DNA of 64,000 bases from a virus. This document shows, one piece after another, positions 24,761-49,814 of this stretch. The position numbers were made by a program, and so were the translations under genes. Under the pieces are notes generated by a model. It did not search any database. It saw only the letters and a list, made by a program, of their open reading frames with translations, and was not told the origin of the DNA. The number at the start of each line of letters is the position of its first letter. Positions within the stretch are counted from its first letter, which is position 1. Where the stretch lies: positions 62,001 through 126,000 of IMG/VR virus record IMGVR_UViG_3300027749_000047. One strand, 5' to 3'.

Positions 24761-25003
24761 TTAAAGTGCTTCACCTGGGCTGATTACTTCAAGGGCGCGA
24801 AGTAGCGTATTGATTTCTACGCCTAGCGCTTCGCACAGCGGGGGAAGAATGTCGATACTTGGCCTGGTTTCAAATGTGAAGTAACGGTACAAGTTACCTC
24901 GGTTGATACCAACGGCTACTGCGACTTCTTGCAGAGACTTATACTCAAGCTCTTTCATTCGTTCGCGTAGCCATTTCATTCCGGTTGGTTGTTTCTTAGC
25001 CAT
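24761..25003 (-). CDS. XRE-family helix-turn-helix regulator
   Basis: The 80-residue protein is a single Cro/CI-type helix-turn-helix domain: MKWLRERMKELEYKSLQEVA, VGINRGNLYRYFTFETRPSI and LPPLCEALGVEINTLLRAL. The recognition helix is around NRGNLYRYF. The gene overlaps the previous one by eight bases and has AAGGAG upstream of the ATG. A transcription regulator is expected; without an integrase there is no evidence that it is a lysogeny repressor. Confidence 0.85.
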   Translation of the reverse strand: MAKKQPTGMKWLRERMKELEYKSLQEVAVAVGINRGNLYRYFTFETRPSIDILPPLCEALGVEINTLLRALEVISPGEAL

Positions 25004-25391
25004 GGTGTACTAGCTCCTTTTCTTCTGCGCATTCGATGCAACCGCAGTCGCTGCACATTTTGTCGTATTCGTTAAAGATGTGACTGAGTGTTGCTGATGT
25101 TAGGTTGCAGTTACGGTCAATGACTTTTGCTGCTTGGGTAGTTGTTTGTGCGAGTGCGTCTACAATTTCGCCGTCGATTGAATTCATGATGCTTGACGCT
25201 TGTGACGCTGCAACATCTGGCGGTAGATAGTTCTCTAGGTGGCGTGTGATTGTGGTCTCGATAGCACCTAGTAGTTCACGACCAAAGATAGTTTTAGCTT
25301 GGTCGTTAAAGTGGTCAATCATGATACTGCGTGTTACTTCGTTTTTTTCATACTCGCGCTTGAGTATTGCTTTTTGTATTTGCTTGCACAT
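24996..25391 (-). CDS. Early protein with cysteine-rich C-terminus, unrecognised
   Basis: The ATG at 25391 has GGAG at five bases and lies beyond the leader terminator; an upstream ATG at 25406 overlaps the terminator T run. The 131-residue protein is mostly helical (KREYEKNEVTRSIMIDHFND, ASQASSIMNSIDGEIVDAL) and ends with CSDCGCIECAEEKEL, a probable metal-binding or redox cluster. It is the first gene after a strong promoter and structured leader. Confidence 0.6.
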   Translation of the reverse strand: MCKQIQKAILKREYEKNEVTRSIMIDHFNDQAKTIFGRELLGAIETTITRHLENYLPPDVAASQASSIMNSIDGEIVDALAQTTTQAAKVIDRNCNLTSATLSHIFNEYDKMCSDCGCIECAEEKELVHHG

Positions 25392-25405: not shown

Positions 25406-25576
25406 TGAAAAAAGCCCCGACGCTGTTTGCGTCAGAGCTGATTGCTTTGTATTTTGTCTTAAGGTTTGTCCGGTCACATCCAAATCGTGACTGAGGTTAT
25501 CCTCCGAGACTGGGAGTGATTATCAGATCAAATCGTAATAATCACTAGTTATCGGGTAAAGGTCTCCCAACCCGAT
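25406..25576 (-). ncRNA. Structured leader RNA ending in a terminator
   Basis: A strong promoter at 25583-25612 would start RNA near 25576. Reading leftward, the RNA can form ATCGGGT/ACCCGAT (25551-25576), an 8-bp perfect stem GTGATTAT/ATAATCAC (25516-25545), GAGG-TTAT-CCTC (25493-25504), GTCAC/GTGAC (25473-25491), then the terminator (25408-25438) just before the first gene. There is no protein frame in it. It is either a stand-alone small RNA of about 170 nt or an attenuated leader. Confidence 0.65.
25408..25438 (-). terminator. Intrinsic terminator in the leader of the XRE operon
   Basis: On the minus strand GCTCTGACGC pairs with GCGTCGGGGC (25429-25438 with 25414-25423) through G-U pairs, with a five-base loop and then six U. 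It lies only about 20 bases before the start of the gene at 25391, so read-through must be controlled for that operon to be expressed from the upstream promoter. Confidence 0.8.
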
Positions 25577-25582
25577 ACATCT

Positions 25583-25612
25583 ATTATACCACACATTTAC
25601 AACGGCTTGCAA
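25583..25612 (-). promoter_or_regulatory. Sigma70-type promoter
   Basis: On the minus strand TTGCAA is followed by an 18-base spacer and TATAAT, with TGG before it as an extended -10. It drives the leader RNA and the genes from 25391 leftward. The same layout (TTGCAT, 18 bases, TATAAT) is found at 28395-28424. Confidence 0.85.
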
Positions 25613-25614
25613 CT

Positions 25615-25803
25615 TTATTTGAAAGTTTTTTCTAACTCTCTTAAAACATCTTTTTCTTCACGAGATAGTTTGAGTTTATCTCGGTAGTAGCCAGATGTTA
25701 CCGTTCGTGTAGAAAGCCAGGCGCGAACACCAGCAGTAATAGCTACTGATGAACCTAATGTAAGTAGTGCACCCATGTATTTAATGGTATCTAAATGTGT
25801 CAT
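25615..25803 (-). CDS. Small membrane protein, unrecognised
   Basis: The 62-residue protein has one hydrophobic segment (MGALLTLGSSVAITAGVRAW) followed by a basic and charged helix (DKLKLSREEKDVLRELEKTF). The ATG overlaps the previous stop (TAATG). A single-span membrane protein with a cytoplasmic helical tail is likely. The downstream promoter begins right after its end. Confidence 0.6.
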   Translation of the reverse strand: MTHLDTIKYMGALLTLGSSVAITAGVRAWLSTRTVTSGYYRDKLKLSREEKDVLRELEKTFK

Positions 25804-28309: not shown

Positions 28310-28331
28310 GATTTTCTCCTGTAATGCAGAA

Positions 28332-28358
28332 ACCCCCAAAACACGGTATTTTGGGGGT
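28332..28358 (-). terminator. Leader hairpin before gene 28070-28309
   Basis: ACCCCCAAAA (28332-28341) and TTTTGGGGGT (28349-28358) form a perfect 10-bp stem with a seven-base loop, in the leader between the promoter and the first gene. On the minus strand it is followed by TTCT only, so termination may be partial. A smaller GGCA/TGCC hairpin lies just before it. Confidence 0.6.
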
Positions 28359-28394
28359 ATTTTCAGGCAGCACAAATGCCGCTTGAATACTTCT

Positions 28395-28424
28395 ATTATA
28401 GCACACTTTGTGACCTTTATGCAA
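28395..28424 (-). promoter_or_regulatory. Sigma70-type promoter
   Basis: On the minus strand TTGCAT, an 18-base spacer and TATAAT, with TGC before the -10. It drives the gene set from 28309 leftward to about 25615. It closely matches the promoter at 25583-25612. Confidence 0.85.
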
Positions 28425-36725: not shown

Positions 36726-37225
36726 TAATAATCTCCTTGATCAGTAATTACTGGCAGTTCAGCAACACGACGTAGAGCAGCAACATATTCTTCAGATGTA
36801 CCAGCAACAACGATAGTGTTATTAGTTATTGTACTAGTAGGCATGTTATCAAGACCCAATACTTTAGCACGCGCTTGAATAATCTTTAATGCTGTTTCTA
36901 CGGCTTGCCTGTCACCATTAATGGCGTCTTGCCATACAGCGCTTTGCAACTCATCAAGCCGGTCCACTTCCATAGCCAGTAAAGACCTTTTGTGGCCAGC
37001 GTCTACTAAGTCTGCGGCTTCTTTTAAAGCATCAGAAATCAAAGTGTTTACGTTTCGCTCTGAAATTCCTAGGTGTTCTGCTATTGACCATAAAGAGCGA
37101 CCTGATCTGCGCATTTCTAGTGCTTTTCTGGCTTTTTCGTTGCGTTCGTCTTGTAAAAGCGCCGCTGAAGTAACTTTTTTGGTTCTAGCTATTTCTTTAG
37201 TAACAGCCGCTTTTTTTACCGTCAT
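36725..37225 (-). CDS. Small terminase-like helix-turn-helix protein
   Basis: The 166-residue protein has a helix-turn-helix (RRSGRSLWSIAEHLGISERN, VNTLISDALKEAADLV) followed by a helical segment (AMEVDRLDELQSAVWQDAIN, GDRQAVETALKIIQARAKVL, GLD). This combination, with RLDELQ..W..A..GD..AV...L.I...RA...GL, is that of many actinophage small terminase subunits. It lies 11 kb from the large terminase and on the other strand, so another DNA-binding role is possible. Confidence 0.6.
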   Translation of the reverse strand: MTVKKAAVTKEIARTKKVTSAALLQDERNEKARKALEMRRSGRSLWSIAEHLGISERNVNTLISDALKEAADLVDAGHKRSLLAMEVDRLDELQSAVWQDAINGDRQAVETALKIIQARAKVLGLDNMPTSTITNNTIVVAGTSEEYVAALRRVAELPVITDQGDY

Positions 37226-37653
37226 TTCTTTCTCCTTCTAGGAGCTACAAAAGCTTTGTCGTCATAATCATCCATGGTTTTTTGCACGTTACCTTTATTG
37301 CGTGCTAAAGCCGCTCTTCGTTCAAAACTTGTAAAACCGCCCCATACACCAAAAGGCTCTTGTTTTTTTAAGGCTGTAATTAAACAGTCACGCTGAACAT
37401 CACATAGTTTGCAAATAGATTTAGCATAATTTATTTGCTGTGAAGACATTGGCAAATCGGAGTGTCCATAAAATATTTCTGATGGCATTCCAAAGCAATA
37501 AGAATCGTCACGCCAATCTCTGCGTGCCGTATAGCGCCAAGCAAGTGGCGTCGATGGCGTCTTGAGGTTTTTTGAGTTGCTGGCAGGCGTCGTAATAATT
37601 GGGGTGTTTGGAAGCAAGCCATCTTGCGACAGCTTCTTTGTCCGATCTTCCAT
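37222..37653 (-). CDS. WhiB-family iron-sulfur transcription regulator
   Basis: Starting at ATG 37653 the protein has 143 residues. It has the four cysteines of the WhiB cluster (C53, C81, C84, C90, with CKLCDVQRDC) and the GVWGG motif (102-106) followed by a basic stretch. WhiB proteins bind a 4Fe-4S cluster and the primary sigma factor region 4, and occur only in actinobacteria and their phages. The first 48 residues are coded by DNA that also codes the end of the RuvC-like gene. It overlaps the next gene by four bases. Confidence 0.88.
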   Translation of the reverse strand: MEDRTKKLSQDGLLPNTPIITTPASNSKNLKTPSTPLAWRYTARRDWRDDSYCFGMPSEIFYGHSDLPMSSQQINYAKSICKLCDVQRDCLITALKKQEPFGVWGGFTSFERRAALARNKGNVQKTMDDYDDKAFVAPRRRKK

Positions 37654-37975
37654 TACCAACTACCGCCTTTTTCCATGATGAAGGTCCAATAAATATTACC
37701 TCTGATTCTACTCGCTGTGCTGCCACAGCCAAAGCACCGGCTACCATACCCATAGATATGCCCGTACGGATGTTGTGGCTAGCGCCCTGAATTGCTTGTT
37801 CAATAACAGTCAATTCAGGGCACGTAGCCCACATTAGGTTGGTTAACCAATCAGACAGGATTAATAGGTTTTTGACGTCATCTTTGCTGGTCAAAATGAG
37901 TTCTTCAAAAACCATGTGGCTAGGGTGTGCGAACGCAATTCGTCTTACACCATAGTCAACTCCTGCTGCATCCAT
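37508..37975 (-). CDS. RuvC-like Holliday junction resolvase
   Basis: The 155-residue protein has an RNase H-like fold pattern with acidic residues at the expected places: D7 in AAGVDYGVRRIAFA, E59 in ELTVIEQAIQGASHNIR, and D139/D142 in KKPQDAIDATCLALYG. It would cut branched DNA made during replication and recombination before packaging. Length is normal for RuvC-type nucleases. Its last 146 bases overlap the WhiB reading frame. Confidence 0.8.
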   Translation of the reverse strand: MDAAGVDYGVRRIAFAHPSHMVFEELILTSKDDVKNLLILSDWLTNLMWATCPELTVIEQAIQGASHNIRTGISMGMVAGALAVAAQRVESEVIFIGPSSWKKAVVGNGRSDKEAVARWLASKHPNYYDACQQLKKPQDAIDATCLALYGTQRLA

Positions 37976-39418: not shown

Positions 39419-42060
39419 GATTCTTCTCTTTCTAAGCCGATTAAAGCACCGGCATCAAATAGCGCAGCGACAATACCGCCACATGCTGATGGTGTGTGAC
39501 CTAGCCCAAGTGATTTTGCACCTGTGACTCTTCTTCCGCTTACTTTTCGTGCTAAATCATCAAGTGAAGTGTATGGTGCATGTCTGACAATCTCCTCTGC
39601 GGCTTTTGTGCCTACGTTCTTAATAGAGGTTAATCCTTTACGGATTGCGTTTTGTTTGATGTCAGCCGAGTAACCTTCTTGTGATCTATTTACATGTGGG
39701 GGTCTTATTTGTACTCCTGCTTCTCTAGCTGCTTTAAGGTAAAGCGGTTCTTGTTTTGCGCCTGTGTAGGAATGTAGCATTCCTGCCCAAAACGCTGCTG
39801 GGTGGTGCACTGAATAGTAACCAGTTATGTATGCTAAGACACCGTATGCTGTTGCATGTGCTTTGTTAAACCCATAGCCAGCGTATGCCTCAAGCGCTTC
39901 TTCTAGCCATGCCAAGTCATGAATGTTCATGCCTTTGGCTAATGCTAGTTCGCGTACACGCTTAAGTAGTTCTACCAATTCATCTCTTGCATCACCAACA
40001 TTGGCGTTAGATGCTTTAATGACTTTGCGCATGCGTTCAATTTCTTCAGCGTCCAAACCAATATTGCGCATAACACCAATAACTTGTTCTTGGTATAAAA
40101 GCACGCCGTATGTGTCTTTGGTCTCATCAGAAATAATTGCGTGACGTTGCGGTACTGGCTCTACTCTTTGCCTACGGTAAATGAAATCGTCAGTAGCGCC
40201 TGACTCCATAGTTGCAGGTCTAAACAGCGCCATAGCAGCAATAACATCAGCAATCTTTGTAGGCTTTAACCTACGAACACCACTGCGGCTAGAACCGCCT
40301 TCCAACTGAAACATACCAACCGTATTGCCTTTAGACATAGCACTATATACAGAACGATCATTAAGCGGAATGTCTTCAGGATTTACGCCTGAATACTCAC
40401 TCATAATACGCAAAGCAGTTAGTGTTTTAAGGCCTAGCAAATCAAGTTTTACTAAACCTAAACGCTCAACATCATCTTTATCAAACGATGTCACCATAGT
40501 TTTACTTGAAGCAACATATTGCAGCGGGACCACAGATGCGGCTTCTGCGCTAGGTGCAACAAGTAATCCAGCAGCATGGACGCCATAGCCCAAGAATGCT
40601 TTCTTGTTTGCTAAACCTTTTAGTGCATTCCATTGATACGTAGTTAAAGGTATGTCAGGGTCTGCGCCAAGTTTTCTTGCACGCATTTTCCATCGAACCA
40701 TAAGGCTACCTTTTTGGTCATTTTCATCATCATCTAGACCCATTTGTAGCCAAGTGCTGATGTTAACAACGTGAAAGTTATCTCTAAGCCAGTTAACTAC
40801 CTCATCTCGACGGTCATGCTCAACATCAATATCGATATCTGGTGGCTTAGTCCGGTCTTTTGATAAAAATCGGTCAAACCTTAATCCCCAAACAATTGGA
40901 TCAAAAGATGTGATGCCTAATAGCCAACAAAGTAGCGAACCAGATGCTGAACCACGAACGTTATAATTGATTTTGTTTTCGTCCATGTATCTGCAAACAG
41001 CAGCAGTAAATACTAAATAGCCTGAAAAACCAGCATTTGTAATAACATCTAATTCTTCATAGATACGGTCTAAGTAAGCCTTTTTCTTGCTTGGCTTTAA
41101 CTTTCCTGTTTCTATTTTGTAATCTAATGATTTTAAACTTACTTCTGCTAGTTCTTTTTCAGGATTTCCAGTAACTGTCGTGTCAGGTACTTTAAGCGAA
41201 AAAGTATCCAACTCTGGAATTACTACTTTTGCTTTAGACAACAAATCATCAAGCCCTTGCATTCCTGCGTTAAAAATTGCTGGGGCGTGGTGTTCTTTCA
41301 TCCATTGTGTATCTACCATGTGGTACCCATCACCAGGAAACAGCGCATCCTCTGGGTCTTCTGACCAAGATACAAGCTCTTTCATGGTGTCATGCAGTAC
41401 ACGATCAGACTCTTCTACATAATGCGAGTCTTGCGTAATAATCACCGGTAGACCGTGCTTTTGTGCAATGCGCCATTGAAGGTTTGAGTGCAGGTCGCTA
41501 TCTTGACCATCTAAATAGATTGCGTGGTTTTGTATTTCTACATAAAGACCTGAACCAAACCAGCCAGCCATACTCATAAGTAGGTTATCTGTAATCTTGT
41601 CGATGTCTGCATTTGGTGTTTTTAGTGTTTCAGACAAGACACCAAACCAACAGCCGGTCATTGCTGCAATGCCATCTAATCTTCCGTCTTCAGCAGCTTG
41701 TGCTAAGTCCGCAAAGTCTAGAATTGGCTTGTATTTGAACTGTTGGTGTGACTGCGTAACAAGCCCGGAAAGGTTGCGATAGCCTCTTTCACTTGTTGCA
41801 AGCATACCTAAGTGCATAGTGTCTGGGCGTTTTTGTTCTCTGTTAACTGCGATGTATGCTTCAACACCAGGCAAAGGCAATATTCCGGCTTTTCTGCAAC
41901 CTGTATAAAGTTGCACAGAGCCAGCCATTGTTCCATGATCTGTTAACCCAAGAGCAGGGTATTCTAACTCTTTGGCTTTATTGACTATTGCATCGACGGT
42001 TGGCAGAGCATCTTTAACAGAGTAGCGACTGTGTGTGTGTGCACTCCAAAACGTGCTCAT
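39415..42060 (-). CDS. dnaE: DNA polymerase III alpha subunit (DnaE-type), compact
   Basis: The 881-residue protein begins with a PHP domain (SAHTHSRYSVKDALPTVDAI, LTDHGTMAGSVQLYTGC) followed by the family C polymerase core, including FDRFLSKDRTKPPDIDIDVE near 395-410 and YQEQVIGVMRNIGLDAEEIE. It ends with a helix-hairpin-helix (AIRKGLTSIKNVGTKAAEEI). Bacterial DnaE proteins are about 1160 residues; here the OB and tau-binding C-terminal domains are missing. It should copy the phage genome, with the helicase and primase encoded upstream. Confidence 0.93.
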   Translation of the reverse strand: MSTFWSAHTHSRYSVKDALPTVDAIVNKAKELEYPALGLTDHGTMAGSVQLYTGCRKAGILPLPGVEAYIAVNREQKRPDTMHLGMLATSERGYRNLSGLVTQSHQQFKYKPILDFADLAQAAEDGRLDGIAAMTGCWFGVLSETLKTPNADIDKITDNLLMSMAGWFGSGLYVEIQNHAIYLDGQDSDLHSNLQWRIAQKHGLPVIITQDSHYVEESDRVLHDTMKELVSWSEDPEDALFPGDGYHMVDTQWMKEHHAPAIFNAGMQGLDDLLSKAKVVIPELDTFSLKVPDTTVTGNPEKELAEVSLKSLDYKIETGKLKPSKKKAYLDRIYEELDVITNAGFSGYLVFTAAVCRYMDENKINYNVRGSASGSLLCWLLGITSFDPIVWGLRFDRFLSKDRTKPPDIDIDVEHDRRDEVVNWLRDNFHVVNISTWLQMGLDDDENDQKGSLMVRWKMRARKLGADPDIPLTTYQWNALKGLANKKAFLGYGVHAAGLLVAPSAEAASVVPLQYVASSKTMVTSFDKDDVERLGLVKLDLLGLKTLTALRIMSEYSGVNPEDIPLNDRSVYSAMSKGNTVGMFQLEGGSSRSGVRRLKPTKIADVIAAMALFRPATMESGATDDFIYRRQRVEPVPQRHAIISDETKDTYGVLLYQEQVIGVMRNIGLDAEEIERMRKVIKASNANVGDARDELVELLKRVRELALAKGMNIHDLAWLEEALEAYAGYGFNKAHATAYGVLAYITGYYSVHHPAAFWAGMLHSYTGAKQEPLYLKAAREAGVQIRPPHVNRSQEGYSADIKQNAIRKGLTSIKNVGTKAAEEIVRHAPYTSLDDLARKVSGRRVTGAKSLGLGHTPSACGGIVAALFDAGALIGLEREES

Positions 42061-46401: not shown

Positions 46402-46818
46402 ATGGCAATATCACGTATTACAGGCACTCAAGCATTTTCACACATGAATGTTTGGCGTCTTAATGAAAAAAATGGTTTTCTTGGCTACTGCCACAGAACA
46501 TGTCAGAATGCTTGGGGACTACCTCCTAAGTATGAATCAGCTATTGATGCATGGAATCATGTACCTAAGCAGCATCGTCATACAGATCCAACTAAGGCTC
46601 CTATAGGAAGTCCCCATTTTTGGGAAGGTGGCTTGTATGGGCATGTGGCGCTTCAGTCAGATAAGAAAGATGTTGTTATTACTACTGATGCCCCTCGCCC
46701 TAATTACATTGGTTTAGAGCACATGGATTTCTTTACTAAGAACTGGGGTAAGAAGTATCTTGGTTGGGCTTCCCAGTACAACGATGTTGATTTGCAGTTG
46801 GGTAAGATGCCTTCATGA
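46402..46818 (+). CDS. Lysin-like cell wall hydrolase (CHAP/NlpC-type)
   Basis: The 138-residue protein has NGFLGYCHRTCQNAWGLPPK (catalytic Cys candidate at about 30), APIGSPHFWEGGLYGHVALQ (His at about 81) and VVITTDAPRPNYIGLEHMDF then KKYLGWASQYNDVDL. The Cys...GHVA..S...TDA order is that of CHAP and related amidases. AAGGAG precedes the ATG. It is followed by a candidate holin-like membrane protein, which fits a lysis role. It lacks a separate wall-binding domain. Confidence 0.65.
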   Translation: MAISRITGTQAFSHMNVWRLNEKNGFLGYCHRTCQNAWGLPPKYESAIDAWNHVPKQHRHTDPTKAPIGSPHFWEGGLYGHVALQSDKKDVVITTDAPRPNYIGLEHMDFFTKNWGKKYLGWASQYNDVDLQLGKMPS

Positions 46819-46958
46819 TTAAATGGCTCAAGAGTTTAGATTGGGAACTTGTATTGTTCAGGTTCATTATTCTTATGACCGGCGCTTGGGCATTATTCAA
46901 TGCTTTCTTACTAGCTGATTTGTTTTATTGGTACAAGACAGGTCACAATTTCTGGTAA
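46815..46958 (+). CDS. Small membrane protein, holin-like
   Basis: The 47-residue frame overlaps the lysin stop (ATGA). It reads MIKWLKSLDWELVLFRFIIL, then MTGAWALFNAFLLADLFYWY and KTGHNFW. One long or two short membrane helices are likely, with a basic end. Coupling to a wall hydrolase suggests a holin or release peptide, but two other holin-like genes lie at 49878-50398. Confidence 0.55.
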   Translation: MIKWLKSLDWELVLFRFIILMTGAWALFNAFLLADLFYWYKTGHNFW

Positions 46959-47107
46959 TATTTTGCTTAGTGTGGGCTTCCTAGGACGTGCCTTTACTAG
47001 CCGCAGTATTGTGGCTCCGTATGGAGTACCAATACCGCCTTGCCAAGACCCTCGTGCACCACATTCTTTCAGTGTTTGTGGGAGCGGGGGTTTTGTGCTA
47101 CATTTAA

Positions 47108-47179
47108 GGTACTGTAGTCCAATAGAGCAGAGACGGCCAGAAAATGGAGGGATTGCAGGTTCAAATCCTGCCAGTACCA
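47108..47179 (+). tRNA. tRNA-like element with defective anticodon arm
   Basis: The acceptor stem is perfect (GGTACTG with CAGTACC, then A) and so is the T arm (GCAGG-TTCAAAT-CCTGC). The D arm is short (GTCC-AATA-GAGC with one mismatch) and lacks GG in the loop. The anticodon arm cannot form five pairs: only CCA/TGG pairs around GAAAA, and no T precedes a plausible anticodon. Total length 72 is normal. No CCA is encoded at the end. It may be a decayed tRNA or a tRNA mimic. Confidence 0.55.
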
Positions 47180-47485
47180 CTTCGCTAGTCTATGCACCAT
47201 GACGTCTGGGAGTATGGGCCTCCATTAAATTGGGCGGCGGAGTCTTTTATGGAATAAGAGTTTGTTTATTCCAAGTTATATGATAAGTTTTCTTTTAACA
47301 GCACGGATTGCAACTGTGTTGGTGAGTGGCTGAAAAAAGTCTCCTGTTTAGGTGGGATGATAAAGCACAACGTGGGTTTAGCGGCCTGGACTTAGCGGTC
47401 TAAAGCGTTGGTAGGAACAAGGCGGTACATAGGATACCTAAACTTCTCCTTGGTGGTAACAGACAATCCACCCTTACAACCTTAA

Positions 47486-47534
47486 GGCCCCGTATGCGGA
47501 CATGATCTGATTGTGACCGGTACGGGGTCTTTTG
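47486..47534 (+). terminator. Intrinsic terminator of the RNA region
   Basis: GGCCCCGTA (47486-47494) pairs with TACGGGGTC (47521-47529) through one G-U pair, with a 26-base loop that has its own pairing potential, followed by TTTTGTGATTTT. It ends the non-coding stretch that contains the tRNA-like element. Confidence 0.75.
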
Positions 47535-47535
47535 T

Positions 47536-47670
47536 GATTTTAGTAGTGTAGAACCTGTGAAATTGGTAGTGTTATATTGTTTACATTGAAATATAACAAA
47601 ACCACGCTAAGTGTTACATTGTTGCATCTTAGTGCAACACTTTGCTTGGTTATGTTGCACCACAATGCAA
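47536..47670 (+). other. Hairpin-rich spacer before the tmRNA-like gene
   Basis: GTTATATT (47571-47578) pairs perfectly with AATATAAC (47590-47597), and GTTGCA (47621-47626) with TGCAAC (47633-47638). AAGTGTT and AACACTT flank the second hairpin and could compete with it. No gene is seen. The tmRNA-like element begins at the end of this spacer. Confidence 0.5.
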
Positions 47671-47750
47671 GGGGCAGGAAGGTTTCGACTAGACATTAAA
47701 ACCGCATGTCGGTAGTGTTTAGGACCAGAGTTCAATTCTCTGCTGCTCCA
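47671..47750 (+). ncRNA. Minimal tmRNA-like gene (tRNA-like domain only)
   Basis: The 5' end GGGGCAG pairs with CTGCTCC at 47743-47749, with a G-U at pair 3-70, the alanine identity mark, followed by A. The sequence after the 5' stem holds GGTTTCGAC, the conserved D-loop region of bacterial tmRNA. The T arm is perfect (CAGAG-TTCAATT-CTCTG). In place of the tag and pseudoknots there is one 10-bp helix (CTAGACATTA with TAGTGTTTAG, two G-U pairs) closed by CCG-CATGT-CGG. Normal tmRNA has about 350-400 nt; this has 80. Confidence 0.7.
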
Positions 47751-47776
47751 CACGCGGCCAAACAAAGGAGATAAGT

Positions 47777-48247
47777 GTGACAACGCAAACATTAGAGAAG
47801 ACACTTGATAGGTTTTATTCAAAAACTCAAGTATCTGCAGGTACTGATTGCTTGAAGTGGGTTGGTGCTATTAATAGCCAAGGTTATGGAAACTTTTGGT
47901 ATGAAGGTAAGACTGTTTCAGCACATAGGTTTATTTTTGTTATGCGCAAGAATGATGGTGAATGGCTAGATAGAAAACTAGTTGTTAGACACACATGTGA
48001 TACTAGAGATTGCACAAACATTGATCACCTTATTTCTGGTACTTACGGCGACAACTTGCAAGATGCTTGGGATAGGAATCGTCGTAGTCGCACGTTAAAG
48101 AAAAAGTCTTCTGCAGTTGCTAAAAAATGGAGTGAACACGCTCACGATGTGGGACTAGATGATTTGGAAACCCCTACGTTAGAGCAGATACGTACTGCTC
48201 AAAAGTTAGCTCGTGAAGTTCTTAGGGAACAAAAAGCGCGTGGCTAG
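47777..48247 (+). CDS. HNH endonuclease (homing-type)
   Basis: The 156-residue protein starts with GTG after AAAGGAGATAA. It has the HNH_3 pattern: CLKWVGAINSQGYGNFWYEG, SAHRFIFVMRKNDGEWLD, VVRHTCDTRDCTNIDHLISG and TYGDNLQDAWDRNRRS. Such free-standing nucleases are often mobile, and others near the terminase are needed for packaging. It lies just upstream of the large terminase. The C-terminal helix (TLEQIRTAQKLAREVLREQK) is extra. Confidence 0.85.
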   Translation: MTTQTLEKTLDRFYSKTQVSAGTDCLKWVGAINSQGYGNFWYEGKTVSAHRFIFVMRKNDGEWLDRKLVVRHTCDTRDCTNIDHLISGTYGDNLQDAWDRNRRSRTLKKKSSAVAKKWSEHAHDVGLDDLETPTLEQIRTAQKLAREVLREQKARG

Positions 48248-48308
48248 TTATGTGTTGACAGTCTTGCTACTGCTATGGTGGGTTGCATCATCGTACTCAG
48301 GAAAGTAA
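48240..48308 (+). CDS. Possible 22-residue membrane peptide
   Basis: A GTG at 48240 overlaps the HNH stop. The frame encodes MASYVLTVLLLLWWVASSYS followed by GK and ends exactly one base before the terminase ATG. It is very hydrophobic. The tight junctions suggest translational coupling, but the ribosome site (GGGAAC) is weak. Confidence 0.35.
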   Translation: MASYVLTVLLLLWWVASSYSGK

Positions 48309-49814
48309 ATGACTGAATCACCTATTTTTAGCCTTGTCAGGCCACCAACCAATAAAGAAGAGTTGTGGTGGACTGTTAAAGCGCTGTGGGGTGTTGAACT
48401 TCCAAGAGTGCAAGTGTGTCCGGATCACACAGCGCCTTTTGATGCTTTTGCAGAGGCGTATTTTGGTAATGATTACAACTGGGTGCTTTGGTATGGTTCG
48501 CGTGGTACAGGCAAGTCTTACATGCTTGCTTTGCTTGCTTTAACTAAGGCTGCTTTGCTTGAGATTAACGTAACGCTTCTTGGTGGGTCTATGGCTCAGT
48601 CACAAAACATTCATGAGCATGTGGAGTTTTTGACGCAATTTCGTAATGCGCCAGTGCACGCTATTGAATCAATTATCAAGACACAAATTACTTTTACTGG
48701 TGGTAACTGGATTCGTCCTCTACCAGCTTCTCAAAAGACTGTTCGTGGTCCTCACCCTCAAATGACTCTGCTTGATGAGATTGACGAAATGGAGCGTAAG
48801 ATTTATGACGCTGCTATGGGTCAGGCTATGACTAAACCTAACGTGCGTGGCGTTGAGATTCCTGAAATGGTTGTTGCTTCTTCTACTTGGCAAAACCCTG
48901 TTGGCACGTTTCAGTCTGTTATGGATGAAGCTTTGGCTAAGGGTATGCCTGTTCGTACGTGGTGTTATCGTGAGCAGTTGAAACCTAATGGGTGGATGGA
49001 TCCTGATTTTATTGAACGTAAACGTATGTCTGTTCCAGCAGAAATGTTTCGTGTTGAGTATGAACTTGGTGAACCTGCTGGTGGGTCTCGTGCGTTTGAT
49101 TTGGAAAAGTTAAATAAGGCTTTTGTTGAATTGCAGATTGTTGATGAGCGTCATTCTGCTAATGATGATGAGTGGATTTTTGAGCATCCAGTGCCTACTG
49201 CTACTTATTCTGCTGGGGCTGATTGGGCAAAAGAGCAAGATAAGACTGTTATTGCTGTGTTTAGGTTAGATGAGGGTAAGCGCACTCTTGTTTATTATCG
49301 CCGGTTTAATCGTATGGATTGGCCTACGATGATTGGTGTTTTTAACAAGGTAACTACTGACTATCAGGCTATGGCAGCGCATGATGCTACTGGTATTGGC
49401 AATGTTGTTCATGACATGGTTGATGAGCGTGTGATTAAGTTTACGATGTCTTCTCAGAAGCGTACTGAGATGCTTACTAATTACATTACTGCTGTTGAGC
49501 AGGGGCGTTATCGTTTGCCTCGCAATACGCCTGCTTACAATGAGCATAAGTCCACTACTGTTGAGGAAGTTTTTGGTGGTGGTGGTTGGAACTCTCATTT
49601 GTCTGATGATGTGTGTGCTTTTGCTTTGGCTCATCATGCTGCTGAACGTATGGCTCCTCCTGCTTCTGGTGAGGGTGTTAAGAAAACTGAATTTGCTCCG
49701 GCTAAGTTTAAAGAGATTACTCCTGTCTATGAGGATGATGGGCGTTACGTTACGCAGGTTGGTTCAGTGACTGTTAAGGATGACAGTGGTGTTGGAGTTT
49801 TTAACCTTTTCTGA
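48309..49814 (+). CDS. terL: Terminase large subunit
   Basis: The 501-residue protein has the packaging ATPase motifs: Walker A GSRGTGKSYMLALLAL (about 63-78), Walker B with glutamate in QMTLLDEIDEMERK (about 153), and the nuclease acidic residues in SAGADWAKEQDKTVIAVFRL (near 305) and MAAHDATGIGNVVHD (near 358). It drives DNA into the prohead and cuts the concatemer. It is in the expected place before the portal, but holin-like and Dps-like genes are inserted between. AGGAAAGT precedes the ATG. Confidence 0.95.
   Translation: MTESPIFSLVRPPTNKEELWWTVKALWGVELPRVQVCPDHTAPFDAFAEAYFGNDYNWVLWYGSRGTGKSYMLALLALTKAALLEINVTLLGGSMAQSQNIHEHVEFLTQFRNAPVHAIESIIKTQITFTGGNWIRPLPASQKTVRGPHPQMTLLDEIDEMERKIYDAAMGQAMTKPNVRGVEIPEMVVASSTWQNPVGTFQSVMDEALAKGMPVRTWCYREQLKPNGWMDPDFIERKRMSVPAEMFRVEYELGEPAGGSRAFDLEKLNKAFVELQIVDERHSANDDEWIFEHPVPTATYSAGADWAKEQDKTVIAVFRLDEGKRTLVYYRRFNRMDWPTMIGVFNKVTTDYQAMAAHDATGIGNVVHDMVDERVIKFTMSSQKRTEMLTNYITAVEQGRYRLPRNTPAYNEHKSTTVEEVFGGGGWNSHLSDDVCAFALAHHAAERMAPPASGEGVKKTEFAPAKFKEITPVYEDDGRYVTQVGSVTVKDDSGVGVFNLF

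Follow-up and report, generated by a model that had tools for sequence, protein, structure and literature searches.

A conserved structured non-coding RNA predicted between its own promoter and terminator in phages of probable freshwater actinobacterial hosts

The window, the whole stretch of 64,000 nucleotides that was analysed, is contained in the virus record G000 of 135,953 bases. When pieces of the record were compared with each other, its halves (1 to ~68,175 and ~68,176 to 135,953) were found to be colinear, with roughly 64-90% identity. Judged from this comparison, the record is two related phages of ~68 kb placed head to tail with the junction near 68,175, probably joined by an artefact of assembly. 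The window therefore begins with ~6 kb of the other phage, and the RNA locus described here sits in the second phage of the record. The second RNA copy in the record was not read as a duplication, since the record is made of two related phages. The locus was found within a minus-strand run of small genes, from 30.8 to 22.4 kb (Table 1).

Table 1. Positions of the RNA module, the sibling module and the neighbouring genes in the window
Feature	Position	Strand	Description
Extended -10 promoter	25583..25612	-	TTGCAA (25612-25607), 18-nt spacer, TATAAT (25588-25583), TG before the -10
Predicted non-coding RNA, ~169 nt	about 25408..25576	-	Start set from the -10; fold z -5.69; homologues in B, C, D and E
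Hairpin 1 (H1, 5' hairpin)	about 25550..25577	-	5' hairpin in 5/5 types, letters vary
Hairpin 2 (H2)	25515..25546	-	Confined to type A, in the window and the contigs identical to it; B has a replacement; C, D and E lack it
Hairpin 3 (H3), conserved core, 57 nt	25455..25511	-	Interrupted by internal loops
Intrinsic terminator (H4)	25408..25439	-	11-bp stem (25439-25413) and U-tract (six T, 25413-25408)
Sibling module	28320..28424	-	Promoter of the same class, a short and a terminator-like hairpin, then SD-ATG
First downstream gene, 131-aa protein	24996..25391	-	No match to a family; A-C share 29-46% aa identity; another gene takes its place in E
XRE (Cro/C1-type HTH) regulator gene	24761..25003	-	HTH_26/HTH_3; found in A-D but not in E
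Downstream gene, up to 335 aa	23664..24671	-	Start uncertain; C, D and E have a homologue behind the RNA, and G014 has one behind the similar layout
Upstream 62-aa gene	25615..25803	-	Present in A-C, absent in D

The initial annotation had described a promoter, four hairpins and a strong terminator between 25406 and 25612. An extended -10 promoter was indeed present there on the minus strand. Its class, TTGC-N15-TGTGNTATAATAGANGTAT, occurred exactly twice in the window and in none of 100 shuffles, and the -10 element and the initial transcribed region were conserved in types A-D of the homologues described below. The terminator also held, with a stem of 11 pairs, six T nucleotides and a start codon 16 nt behind the U-tract. 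The supported start of that next gene was the ATG at 25391, with the SD sequence GGAG at 25400-25397; an alternative in-frame ATG at 25406 was found to be out of frame in relative B. The 16-nt gap contained no promoter and had no room for one. All four hairpins were present in the window, but only H1, H3 and H4 were kept in the relatives, H2 being type-specific. The H3 core contained RGG-AUAA-CC, followed by a hairpin and CCGG-ACAAA-CC; these form an asymmetric internal loop, and a GUCU/AGAC helix closes it. The RNA has a promoter and an intrinsic terminator of its own and no conserved ORF (the ORFs were compared by eye only), as is expected of an intergenic small RNA of a phage.

The minimum free energy of the RNA was -58.2 kcal/mol, against -36.5 +/- 3.8 kcal/mol in dinucleotide shuffles (z -5.69), and 0/200 shuffles were as good. 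The z of the opposite strand, folded with slightly different end points, was -1.81. When types A-E were each compared with their own shuffles, the sense z ranged from -2.9 to -5.7 and the antisense strand was always weaker.

Homologues of the RNA were found in five phage types, namely A (the window), B, C, D and E, of which four were strong and E was weaker by score; one copy was present per phage genome. Type B, the neighbouring phage of the same record, was found by blast. A gapped motif scan of the viral contigs turned up copies identical to those of A and B, as well as a third type, C. Complete records of known members and of 50 terminase relatives were searched with model R1, which yielded type D, and type E was found with model R2. 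The full-model score of type E was 26.9 bits, with terminator-only matches at 18-25 bits, and the core-only model R3 gave it 8.1 bits. The assignment of E therefore rests on the full-model score, on the exact motif GGATAACC...CCGGACAA, which was found in E, in 0/11 other relatives and not once in the reversed control, on its promoter, 5' hairpin and terminator, and on synteny, the homologue of the 335-aa gene following the RNA with matching orientation. Exact half-motif scans and a relaxed motif scan of the viral contigs gave only chance matches beyond the family and type E.

In G014 and G019 the corresponding site, upstream of homologues of the 335-aa and/or 119-aa genes, was inspected as well; there, a promoter-like site with 18-nt spacing was followed by a 5' hairpin, a long central hairpin and a terminator. 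The letters of the core do not align, so these two were counted as having the same layout only. Loci of similar layout, from two more distant relatives, were L163 (G019:C1, minus strand, about 41,750-41,920) and L152:1160-1324 (-), which are possibly fast-evolving members of the same RNA.

No match of the RNA at gathering score was found among the 4,227 Rfam models, the best being MicC with 18.7 bits against a cut-off of 90; MicC, DdR8 and the other weak Rfam matches were regarded as chance. The blast of types A and E against INPHARED gave no real match. Model R3 had 0 matches in 166 genomes of the actinobacterial order of the host-like MAG, a set that contains no positive control, and no match was found in one Arthrobacter and one Microbacterium phage, both cultivated and capsid-sharing. 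A host match, L140, consisted of a terminator hairpin only.

The structure was found to be kept by compensatory changes in the relatives. In the unfitted alignment of A-D, 25/25 pairs were kept in every sequence and double changes were seen in 4/25, a score reached by 2/500 shuffles; RNAalifold predicted the same structure from A-D unaided. The alignment of A-E, which was fitted to the model, had compensatory double changes in 10/25 pairs, and 124/124 cells were paired (100%). The covariation score of this fitted alignment was reached by 0/500 shuffles, and slid controls were nowhere near. Compensatory changes are a further property expected of a phage intergenic small RNA, and they were found here. 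Most of the invariant letters belong to the internal loop or adjoin it, with GG-AUAA-CC facing GG-ACA(A)A-CC. H1 was kept as a hairpin with varying letters and H2 was not kept. Loss of the hairpins from relatives that retain the promoter and the gene, which had been named as the result that would refute the proposal, was thus seen for H2 only, and H1, H3 and H4 were retained.

Between A and C, the core was 82% and the terminator 90% identical, whereas at the DNA level the upstream gene was 51%, the first downstream gene 48% and the XRE gene 64% identical. The RNA was also retained through the turnover of its neighbours: type D is without the 62-aa gene and has an inserted 87-aa gene, and in type E the XRE gene was not found and the 131-aa gene is replaced. 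Shape and key letters are kept while the neighbouring genes change, so the RNA is, by this comparative evidence, a real and conserved family of a known kind, uncatalogued before in the collections searched. The match to promoter and terminator, the structure, the covariation, the conservation and the position are what the analysis shows.

The 131-aa protein had no Pfam match at all. The XRE regulator, whose operon had been said to begin behind the terminator, does lie downstream of the RNA; it is the second gene in A-C and the third in D, not the first, and the arrangement is not general, as the gene was not found in E. The regulator was 53-62% identical to chromosomal genes of freshwater actinobacterial MAGs (L034-L041), where it adjoins a transporter-like gene (neighbour judged by eye). 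An exchange of the regulator between phage and host is possible. The host of this uncultured virus is probably an actinobacterium, probably of fresh water, and the chromosomal location of the XRE relatives in such MAGs supports an actinobacterial host.

The second occurrence of the promoter class belongs to a sibling module at 28.4 kb, which was without the conserved core. The sibling module was conserved in A-D, and its hairpin carried a compensatory change in D. Each genome has two modules, which share a promoter and an initial transcribed region conserved to an unusual degree and which end in a terminator just before an SD-ATG. Because promoter class and terminator recur in the sibling but the core does not, the order promoter-terminator-gene may be a general gating design.

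Other features were observed elsewhere in the window. An 83-nt RNA at 47671-47753 (+) matched the Rfam tmRNA with 61 bits (cut-off 47), in the tRNA-like domain only. A G3:U70-like pair was kept in its acceptor stem, the mRNA-like part was wholly missing, and no CCA end was present. The copies in the two phages of the record were 94% identical, and several relatives (L044, L045, L067, L047, L050 and L053) had matches of 54-62 bits ahead of the terminase; this tagless mini-tmRNA is perhaps a decoy. The segment 47108-47179 (+) gave a weak tRNA match (36.6 bits, cut-off 29), was absent from the ARAGORN output, and may be a degenerate or unusual tRNA. By our own reading of the translation, the ORF at 37222-37659 (-) has a cysteine pattern like that of WhiB regulators, which have been reported for phages of freshwater actinobacteria (PMC10202952).

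The initial annotation had left open whether the locus encodes a small RNA of the phage or a leader whose terminator must be bypassed. The first of these is favoured by the self-contained unit of promoter, RNA and terminator, by the compensatory changes and by a sequence that is kept as the flanking genes diverge. We propose a phage-encoded structured non-coding RNA that would stand alone and act in trans, with read-through feeding the operon, a proposal that we consider about evenly poised between right and wrong. The host RNA polymerase would initiate at the extended -10 promoter and produce an RNA of about 120-170 nt, with the 5' hairpin, the conserved 57-nt core hairpin, a spacer and the terminator in this order, and most of the RNA would be released at the terminator. 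It would then act in trans, most likely through a protein bound via the asymmetric internal loop (AUAA / ACAAA between GG/CC pairs); protein binding is favoured over antisense pairing because no conserved single-stranded seed was found. A minority of polymerases would pass the terminator and give low-level expression of the downstream operon, comparable to what was measured for the Pleft ncRNA of L5. We infer in this way the transcription and timing of the RNA, its trans action, its protein partner and the read-through.

Two findings count against an action in trans. The place is fixed, ahead of an operon with the 335-aa-type gene in A, C, D, E and G014, which also fits a cis leader, and the sibling module has the promoter class and the terminator but no core. 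Both would fit a gate that works in cis by antitermination, in which polymerase would stop at the terminator by default until a phage factor, or the core as a put-like RNA, converts it to read the operon, and the short RNA would be mainly a by-product. The next gene follows the terminator with no promoter in between, the two modules share promoter and initial transcribed region and place a terminator just before an SD-ATG, and C, D and E all keep the RNA ahead of the 335-aa-type operon. However, a sibling without the core means that the core is no general antitermination signal, and no antitermination protein was identified; we regard this gate as the main rival, but as a tentative and rather doubtful explanation. 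Less expected still, and unlikely in our estimate, is that the core is a self-sufficient put-like antitermination element, or an RNA binding the polymerase or a host protein, which would gate its own operon and act in trans as well. The trans RNA and the polymerase-modifying gate could both be true, by analogy with Listeria Rli51. If the RNA does both, it would be to our knowledge the first such RNA in phages of freshwater actinobacteria.

A structured leader with a terminator right ahead of a gene could also be a classical attenuator or riboswitch, in which the leader would switch between the terminator and an alternative fold, depending on a ligand, on uncharged tRNA or on whether a leader peptide is translated. 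The terminator, however, was found to form with P 0.97-0.99 in types A-E, and the structure was 16-19 kcal/mol better than that without the terminator. No conserved pairing competing with it was found in A-E, and upstream segments that could compete shared their position in two types at most; the best competitor, UCGGAG/CUCUGA, was confined to A and B. A stable, independent terminator without a conserved competitor makes a classical attenuator unlikely. A GGAGG was present without a start codon at usable distance, no short ORF was common to the types (by eye), and there was no Rfam match, so that we give this explanation very little credence. The leader reading with terminator bypass may still hold: the absence of a promoter between terminator and gene and the same layout in the sibling favour it, and the lack of a conserved antiterminator pairing and the variable gene behind the terminator do not. 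A replication element, acting as primer RNA or origin, in RNA or DNA form, would agree with a single structured, promoter-driven element at a fixed place in each genome, but a finished RNA product is the better reading of the strand-specific fold, the conserved U-G pairs and the strong, conserved terminator, and a replication element is slightly more improbable again. The order promoter, RNA, terminator and protein gene also matches a type III toxin-antitoxin system, with the RNA as antitoxin and the protein behind the terminator as toxin. Here the RNA unit is not in tandem, with a single copy of the core, and the 131-aa protein is without a Pfam family (no ToxN-type endoribonuclease) and has no counterpart in E; we regard such a system as the most improbable of all.

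Apart from those of the enteric models, structured phage small RNAs rarely come with comparative support; covariation and a defined 57-nt core with invariant loop letters were found here. With the predicted promoter-terminator frame, these make the RNA directly testable once a host is available. Among known systems, the lambda late leader gives the 6S RNA from pR' to tR', and Q lets the polymerase read on, and in HK022 the put RNA itself converts the polymerase to antitermination. The RNA of the window resembles them in being short and in terminating behind a promoter but ahead of the genes served; it differs in that no likeness to Q, N or put was demonstrated, and the lambda leader is without a core that has a conserved internal loop. 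Rli51 of Listeria is a 5' leader, about 121 nt long after premature termination, and serves as a trans sRNA as well, and an antiterminator fold was predicted for it (PMC11394854). This combination resembles the double role proposed for the RNA of the window, but Rli51 is bacterial and has a predicted antiterminator fold, whereas the phage RNA has no conserved one. The best precedent comes from the cluster A mycobacteriophages L5, D29 and StarStuff, in which the Pleft ncRNA is abundant and about 90% terminated, with some read-through; in L5 and D29 it is located between the early promoter Pleft and gene 89, the first gene (PMC5712189). Model R2 had no match in the right end of D29 (46500-49127). 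The Pleft ncRNA was measured, about 500 nt long and processed, whereas the RNA of the window is predicted and ~169 nt long. The layout of a promoter-driven ncRNA that ends shortly before the first gene of an operon in an actinobacterial phage is predicted for the window as well, and this parallel to the abundant unexplained ncRNAs of mycobacteriophages suggests that promoter-RNA-terminator units before operons may be common in actinophages.
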